Assembly (NCBI GenBank): GCA_035628995.1
Contig: DASPIR010000011.1
Location: 1 to 37,451 of the forward strand
Direction of reading: 5' to 3'
Length of the DNA stretch: 37,451 nt
DNA from: Clostridia bacterium
Lineage (GTDB): Bacteria; Bacillota; Clostridia; Lutisporales; Lutisporaceae
Numbering within the stretch: position 1 is the first letter of the stretch; each line of letters opens with the position of its first letter. Positions 1 through 37,451 of this stretch are shown piece by piece. A model generated the notes under the pieces. That model saw only the letters and a program-made list of their open reading frames with translations. It did not search any database and was not told the origin of the DNA. Position numbers and translations under genes: made by a program.

Positions 1-4
1 TACT

Positions 5-60
5 TGTAAAATCCTAACGCACATAAACCCAACGTCCTGTTGGTATGTGCTAGATTTACA
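5..60. repeat. Three-tiered hairpin, possibly a mobile-element end
   Basis: Nested inverted repeats are directly visible: TGTAAAATC (5-13) with GATTTACA (53-60), GCACATA (19-25) with TATGTGC (44-50), and CCAAC (29-33) with GTTGG (39-43). A second small hairpin, AAATC/GATTT, follows at 67-81. The stretch has no convincing reading frame on either strand. Subterminal hairpins of this sort are typical of IS200/IS605-type ends, but no transposase or TnpB is visible in the window, so that identity is only an inference. It could equally be a structured RNA or part of the repeat next to it. Confidence 0.5.
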
Positions 61-196
61 TCACGTAAATCTTACGGATTTTCCTACGTATCAAGCTCTA
101 TTCTGTTACCCAAAGACTTATAAGTGTTCGCTGATATACAAAGTTAATGCTTCCCTAATCGATACTTAGCTTTCATCTGCTGAGTAAGTAATTGGT

Positions 197-413
197 AAAG
201 CAGCCTTGTTAATAAGCCAAAGTATGCTTATACAGAAATTGTTAATGGCACTTAGGAGCGTAGCCTTAGAAAAATCGTATACGAGGAAGGACGCCGAGTA
301 AGCCTTCCAAGGCCAAGGACGGCCTTTGGAAGGCGTTAGATTTTTCTTAGGCGCAGCGGATTAGTGCCATCAATTTTTGTATACTCATAAGTGGCTATTA
401 ACATGGCTGCTTT
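197..413. repeat. Long imperfect palindromic repeat, copy 1
   Basis: The two ends are inverted copies of each other, starting AAAGCAGCC (197-205) and ending GGCTGCTTT (405-413). The arms pair through GTTAATGGCACTTAG (241-255) against TTAGTGCCATCAAT (361-374), and through TTAGAAAAATC (266-276) against GATTTTTCTTAGGCG (338-352). The tip is a GC-rich hairpin at 302-334: GCCTTCCAA/TTGGAAGGC, then GGCC/GGCC, loop AAGGAC. There is no ORF inside. A second copy lies in opposite orientation at 37313-37451, so this is a dispersed element. The form fits a MITE-like element or a REP-like structured repeat. Confidence 0.8.
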
Positions 414-17830: not shown

Positions 17831-18093
17831 AAAAAGTCCCTTCAGCTAAAGCCAAAGGGACGATAAAATACCGCGGTACCACCCAGGTTATGCATCACAG
17901 TTTAAACAAATGATACACCACTCAATGCATATAACGCATGCCTGCGAAAAGGCTTACTGGTTTTCAGCCGTTCAGCTCCGAGGTGATCTTCATAAACTGG
18001 CAAATGACAATCTTCCACCAAATGAATGTCTCTCTTTGAATTGCGTCCTTTACTACTGTCCTCTTCAATGCTTTTTTAATGTTTAAAATTAAT
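17831..18093 (-). promoter_or_regulatory. T-box riboswitch of ileS (Ile specifier ATC)
   Basis: The conserved T-box TGGGTGGTACCGCG lies on the minus strand within 17871-17889. The terminator stem is GTCCCTTTGGC / GCTGAAGGGAC with a TTTA loop (17836-17861), followed by TTTTT. In Stem I the specifier codon ATC (Ile) reads at 17985-17987 in the context TGAAG-ATC-ACC. Uncharged tRNA-Ile would stabilise the antiterminator and permit ileS transcription. The transcript start is inferred from the promoter at 18101-18130. Confidence 0.95.
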
Positions 18094-35945: not shown

Positions 35946-36234
35946 AATTATATATTTTCGACAATGACGGGAAGAGTAGCTTTAAGGATATGCTGCAGCG
36001 AGCCGGGAATGGTGTAAGCCTGGCACTAAGCCTTAAGTGAAGAACAGCCCTGAGTCTCTAACCGAAATCCGCATAGGAAAGTAGACTTAGACGGAGCCAT
36101 ACCGTTATAGAATGGACAGTATCGATTATATTAAAGAATCCGTACTGACAAAGTGGGTTAAAGCATAGCATTTAACCAATCAGGGTGGTACCGCGAATTA
36201 CCTTTCGTCCCTTTCATAGGGATGAAGGGTTTTT
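35946..36234 (+). promoter_or_regulatory. T-box riboswitch of asnA (Asn specifier AAC)
   Basis: The T-box core AGGGTGGTACCGCG is at about 36182-36195. The terminator stem pairs ACCTTTCGTCCCT (36200-36212) with AGGGATGAAGGGT (36218-36230; two wobble pairs) and is followed by a T-run. In Stem I the specifier reads AAC (Asn) at 36043-36045 in the context TGAAG-AAC-AGC, the same context as the ileS leader. The Stem I distal region AGCGAGCCGGGAATGG is also typical. Uncharged tRNA-Asn should switch on asnA. Confidence 0.95.
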
Positions 36235-37285: not shown

Positions 37286-37312
37286 AGGTTACTGGCAACT
37301 GCCAAAATAGGA

Positions 37313-37451
37313 ACAGCCATGTCATAGCCACATATGAGTATACAAAAATTGATGGCACTAATTCTCTCCGCCTAAGAAAAGTCTAACGCCTTCCAATATC
37401 CATCCGTGGACGTGGAAGGCTTGCTTCGGCGTCCTGCCTCGCATACGACTT
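37313..37451. repeat. Long imperfect palindromic repeat, copy 2 (inverted, truncated)
   Basis: This is the inverse of copy 1 (197-413). Shared blocks include ACAGCCATGT, TATGAGTATACAAAAATTGA, TGGCACTAAT, CGCCTAAGAAAA and TCTAACGCCTTCC. The apical hairpin at 37388-37420 has the same outer stem GCCTTCCA/TGGAAGGC, but the inner stem is TCCA/TGGA around TCCG, in place of GGCC/GGCC in copy 1. The copy is cut by the window edge, which falls in the region matching copy 1 at about 273-283. Confidence 0.8.

Follow-up and report, generated by a model that had tools for sequence, protein, structure and literature searches.

TwoAYGGAY (Rfam RF01731) is known as an orphan RNA motif, in which two tip hairpins with AYGGAY-type loops stand on a long external stem, an architecture shared by the hairpin module described here. 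Weinberg and colleagues listed it in 2010 as probably RNA and not cis-regulatory (PMC2864571); Rfam types it as cis-regulatory. CsrA binding was proposed in 2015 for TwoAYGGAY and for the reverse complement of a second motif, Bacillaceae-1 (Gardner and Eldai, PMC4333381), so that both the family and the CsrA-binding idea are already known. The loop bound by RsmE reads A-N-GGA-N, with variable N positions (PMC7652899), and GGA hexaloop hairpins of this RsmE/CsrA type are what our module has in common with CsrA-sequestering RNAs of the CsrB/RsmZ type. It differs from these in offering two sites per unit and not many, in occurring in Clostridia, and in being dispersed and in all probability mobile.

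Miniature inverted-repeat transposable elements (MITEs) share with the present element a short, noncoding and multicopy body, inverted ends and polymorphic insertion. The element departs from them in its structured cargo under selection, its nested modules and, in its home genus, the duplication of a terminator hairpin. The REP/RAYT system couples 20-60-bp palindromes to a RAYT (Y1) transposase; REP/BIME sequences are dispersed extragenic palindromes, and group IIC introns insert next to intrinsic terminators, without, to our knowledge, duplicating them. Compared with REP the present element is far larger, and no intron or reverse-transcriptase features were seen in it. Our main reading, to which we assign a probability of roughly 60%, is that it is a MITE-like, non-autonomous mobile element carrying a TwoAYGGAY hairpin as a candidate CsrA docking site, inserted at terminators in some cases.

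The window analysed here (37,451 nucleotides) is the entire contig C11 of a 35-contig, 3.65-Mb assembly of an uncultured Clostridia bacterium of the Lutisporaceae, the home genome in what follows. The features relevant to the element, which consists of two modules called H1 and H2, are these:

1 to 196, + strand: remnant of H1 and linker to H2, aligned (~88-95%) to complete H1 copies at other places in the genome.
197 to 413, GGA loops on the + strand: H2, the putative TwoAYGGAY hairpin module and the palindrome of the preliminary description, identified by its fold and ~20 genome copies.
287 to 292, + strand: first tip loop, AAGGAC, its closing C-G pair lost here (GG-AAGGAC-GCC).
315 to 320, + strand: second tip loop, AAGGAC, an intact A-N-GGA-N hexaloop closed by GGCC/GGCC (311-314, 321-324).
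438 to 460, - strand: intrinsic terminator of lepB, stem CCCGGCATAAATGCCGGG followed by a T-rich stretch, adjoining the right end of the element.
467 to 1006, - strand: lepB (TIGR02227).
37303 to 37451, - strand: inverted second copy of H2, downstream of asnA (TIGR00669); its outer end reads CCAAAATAGGAACAGCCATGTC, and the contig end cuts the copy short.

The preliminary description of this DNA had reported a dispersed 217-bp palindrome, almost entirely self-complementary, with inverted copies at the two window ends, one beyond the lepB terminator and one after asnA. The palindrome itself is real: positions 197-413 form a long imperfect one (AAAGCAGCC...GGCTGCTTT) that folds as RNA at -103.6 kcal/mol (200 dinucleotide shuffles: -55.3 +/- 4.2; z -11.6). 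The wording on self-complementarity was slightly too strong, as the minimum-energy fold pairs 73% of the bases. The gene context is as described, and so is the inverted second copy (window 272-409 against 37314-37451, 139 bp, 86%), whose outer end agrees with the inverted repeat seen in intact copies. What does not hold is any significance of the paired arrangement. Assemblies break at repeats, and of the 70 contig ends here 12 lie inside H1 or H2; the copies stand symmetrically because both ends of C11 fall inside repeat copies. A local inverted pair was therefore ruled out as a contig-end artefact. Dispersal, on the other hand, extends well beyond the window: the 3.65-Mb genome holds about 20 copies of H2, and others are present in all five congeners searched and in the genus Lutispora, which excludes the case of only two local copies.

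The 217 bp are also not the complete element, as had been supposed. When oriented and aligned, several H2 copies are preceded on the left by ~265 conserved bases that form a hairpin whose tip has two arms (H1), and the fullest copies are tandem H1-H2 composites of ~530 bp, bounded by CAAAATAAGAACAGCCATGTC and its complement. Since H1 is conserved at this position in the fuller copies, window 1-196 is the stump of an H1 shortened by the contig start. The modules are separable. The home genome has 18 H1 places, and H2 stands without H1 in some copies and H1 without H2 in others; in congeners, H1 is found alone or ahead of other hairpins. The loops of H1 in the window are CGTCCT and ATCAC on the + strand, hence AGGAC and GTGAT on the other. 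In composites H1 and H2 carry their GGA-type loops on opposite strands, so that a single transcript would not show both sets.

The palindrome had been described as belonging to no named family. Its relatives point elsewhere: with a gathering cut-off of 43 bits, four copies pass as RF01731 (L144, 50.0; L142, 47.8; L124, 44.4; L129, 44.1 bits), the passers belonging to the home genus and Lutispora. The window copy itself is below the cut-off (28.8 bits, E 0.019, at 240-375 on the + strand) and is 82% identical to L129, which passes. Judged by these sequence relationships, H2 probably belongs to the TwoAYGGAY family, with a window copy that is sub-threshold. Two adjacent AYGGAY-type hairpins on a long stem, the hallmark of the family, are found across H2 copies; what is added here is that the motif is a module of probable mobile elements bounded by terminal inverted repeats (TIRs) and fused to other hairpins. 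For H1, the best weak match is Bacillaceae-1 (RF01690) at window 8-69, with 25.2 bits against a gathering score of 35. Its two tip hairpins resemble that family (CGUCCUG loops), although H1 stays below the cut-off and its second loop, GTGAT, is not of the A-N-GGA-N type. RF01690 at E 0.001 had no match among 22 genomes of the home family.

H2 has at its tip a three-way junction bearing two short hairpins, and between genomes the stem sequences vary while the loops remain A-N-GGA-N. Among 42 H2 copies, loop 2 keeps this form in 37 and loop 1 in 29, another 11, of the home-genome type, having a loop 1 one base short (AGGAN, as AGGAC); in the window copy loop 2 is intact and loop 1 lacks its closing pair. 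Conservation by position in loop 1 (1.0, 0.45, 0.98, 0.98, 1.0 and 0.45 in the 42 copies) matches, at the level of sequence, the published CsrA/RsmE recognition loop. The stems were analysed with RNAalifold on an alignment of the H2 copies that were not truncated. In the consensus structure of 46 pairs, 97% of cells are paired, against 85% when shuffled and 35-49% with slid partners (42 copies), and double changes occur at 24 of the 46 pairs, against a mean of 12.5 and a maximum of 19 in 300 shuffles; since the H2 copies are related, these controls are not probabilities. The H2 fold is under constraint and its stems covary. In genome G215 (L244-L251) the outer arms are very different between copies, each pairing with its own partner, which may be due to selection or to arm replacement. 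In Lutispora saccharofermentans, three copies (L139-L141) have lost the hairpin tip through an internal deletion and kept the base of the stem.

Two marks of a CsrB/RsmZ-type RNA, A-N-GGA-N hairpin loops and csrA in the genome, are present in the home genome. RF01731 was found in 27 of 291 Clostridia genomes, often in several copies; at most 9 candidates were scored per genome, so that the copy counts are lower bounds. csrA is present in 23/27 carriers and in 72/264 non-carriers (Fisher p 4.7e-9, a test that ignores phylogeny). Outside the home family the figures are 20/20 and 67/258 (p 1.5e-11, likewise ignoring phylogeny), and all 10 carrier families are among the 32 families with csrA. The four carriers lacking csrA, all of them drafts, belong to the home family, where csrA occurs in other members of their genera and in 15 of 22 genomes overall. 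Flagellin nearly tracks csrA in the surveyed genomes, so that the association of RF01731 with csrA may reflect lifestyle; outside the family, 13 genomes have flagellin but no csrA, and these hold no RF01731 and are too few to part csrA from motility. Taken with the identity of the loops, their pairing side by side and the covariation of the stems, this co-occurrence makes candidate CsrA docking plausible, and we put at about even the chance that CsrA binds the module when it is transcribed.

As to mobility, the preliminary description was right in suggesting a MITE-like element. It is multicopy, dispersed, noncoding, shorter than ~600 bp and bounded by TIRs, the features by which a MITE is recognised, and congeners have empty sites. 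The clearest case is G057, a related closed genome, where copies lie round the chromosome with common 16-bp inverted ends. Direct repeats of 8-10 bp flank all eight copies that have both ends (six exact, two imperfect). These repeats would be target-site duplications in G057. In the home genus three sites have a duplicated terminator hairpin of 20-28 bp; consistent 8-9-bp duplications were not found at H2 copies of G021, G000 and G001/G003, nor was any short duplication of fixed length in the home family. Counterparts without H1 exist for H1 sites as well. We consider the element very probably mobile. The same TIRs in G057 also bound 134-bp elements without the TwoAYGGAY tip (L268, L274) and elements of 396-463 bp with extra hairpins. 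As the TIRs move without it, the tip is cargo and not needed for movement. Nested in the TwoAYGGAY element of four G057 copies (L267, L269, L270, L273) is a further hairpin module, GGCTTGACATATATAC...GTATATATGTCAAGCC, and L269 holds three modules. Two kb-sized pairs of TIRs in the same genome were considered as an autonomous transposon and rejected: judged from their translations, they contain a glycosidase-like and a subtilisin-like gene, and no transposase was seen in these two pairs.

All these marks of transposition would equally be expected of a purely selfish palindromic MITE, whose tip loops serve as a hairpin site for transposase or replication enzymes and resemble CsrA sites by coincidence. 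The other hairpin modules riding in the same TIRs and the lack of orientation bias relative to genes suit that explanation too. It is the strongest competitor of our reading and a real possibility, if an unlikely one, as three observations speak against it: the tipless 134-bp elements of G057 dispense with the supposed enzyme site, the conserved loop positions are those contacted by CsrA while the N positions are free, and carriers outside the home family occur only among genomes with csrA.

The opposite explanation is that the copies are immobile ncRNA genes, CsrA sponges or others, multiplied by ordinary duplication and maintained by selection. The strong structural constraint, the arms of G215 that differ and still pair, and the presence of several copies in many genomes would all be accounted for. 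We nevertheless find it improbable: in G057 the inverted ends are precise and short repeats flank them, modules are nested, and copies carry no neighbour genes along; the empty orthologous sites already weaken it.

Those empty sites also bear on the location after genes, which is borne out and partly explained. The H2 insertions L157, L158 and L160 of G001 have orthologous empty sites in G003, and the latter two in G000 as well. A single intrinsic terminator hairpin stands at each empty site and two at each filled site, one per side, the duplicated hairpins measuring 20, 23 and about 25-28 bp. The post-gene position is thus partly a consequence of insertions that hit and duplicated intrinsic terminators. 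Flanking repeats at L009, L124, L128 and L129 are consistent with such duplication, and only 7 of the 32 H2 copies tested have a terminator-type flanking repeat. Copies lie between genes, least often between divergent ones (10 of 70 scored pairs). Co-orientation of the GGA strand with neighbouring genes was ruled out (++ 19, -- 21). A REP-like palindrome that terminates transcription or stabilises mRNA ends of neighbouring genes, the other affinity first proposed, would fit the position after genes and terminators and the scarcity of divergent pairs, and is very improbable, because the element, with its elaborately branched tip and a length of about 200-530 bp, is too large, an existing terminator often already precedes the copy, and the fixed tip loops and csrA co-occurrence would be left unexplained.

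To return to a mobile element with a candidate CsrA docking site, its inverted ends hold a single long hairpin module or several, in the window a TwoAYGGAY module fused to H1. In the home genus such an element can insert at an intrinsic terminator and leave the terminator hairpin on both sides, as the three sites show, possibly by staggered nicks at the foot of each arm of the palindrome, with fill-in copying the whole hairpin. A transcript of the GGA strand would form a rod with two side-by-side A-N-GGA-N hexaloops that could dock one CsrA dimer, and any copy that is transcribed could titrate CsrA or hold it at a read-through mRNA. The random orientation towards genes and the opposite loop strands of H1 and H2 count against a CsrA function. 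The low score and damaged loop 1 of the window copy, the eleven short loops, the small share of copies with terminator-type repeats and the missing fixed duplication in the home family likewise weigh against the main reading. The bolder version, transposable CsrA sponges, in which elements spread putative CsrA-binding hairpin pairs across Clostridia genomes as a distributed control on a global regulator, and insertion by cutting at the feet of the terminator hairpin duplicates it and lets the host gene still terminate, is doubtful.

If true, a transposon would be distributing regulator-binding RNA hairpins, and terminator-duplicating insertion would be a low-harm way of landing in a genome. 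The conservative part alone, that TwoAYGGAY is mobile, multicopy and occurs with csrA, would change the reading of RF01731 as a cis-regulatory family. An orphan Rfam RNA family, mobile palindromes and CsrA in Clostridia are joined here, and were unlinked in the open-access papers searched: that literature yielded no report of TwoAYGGAY mobility, of fusion with a Bacillaceae-1-like hairpin (H1-H2) or of genome-level co-occurrence with csrA, and nothing relevant on MITEs with CsrA or on terminator-targeted insertion with duplication. Lutispora saccharofermentans offers a cultured host for a direct assay.

Another palindromic repeat family, of GACACGGGGACGTTTC...GTGTC type, was seen at L281 and L282 (G001) and in the flanks of L254, L255 and L238, at post-gene spots where congeners have H1. 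At the orthologous site of L152, H1 is found in G001, an H4-type hairpin in G003 (L287), a short repeat in G002 (L285) and nothing in G005 (L288). In the window, the first 25 kb had no match in a phage search, and an Rfam search at gathering level gave no known RNA other than two T-box leaders, at 17853-18077 on the - strand before ileS and at 35955-36215 on the + strand before asnA.
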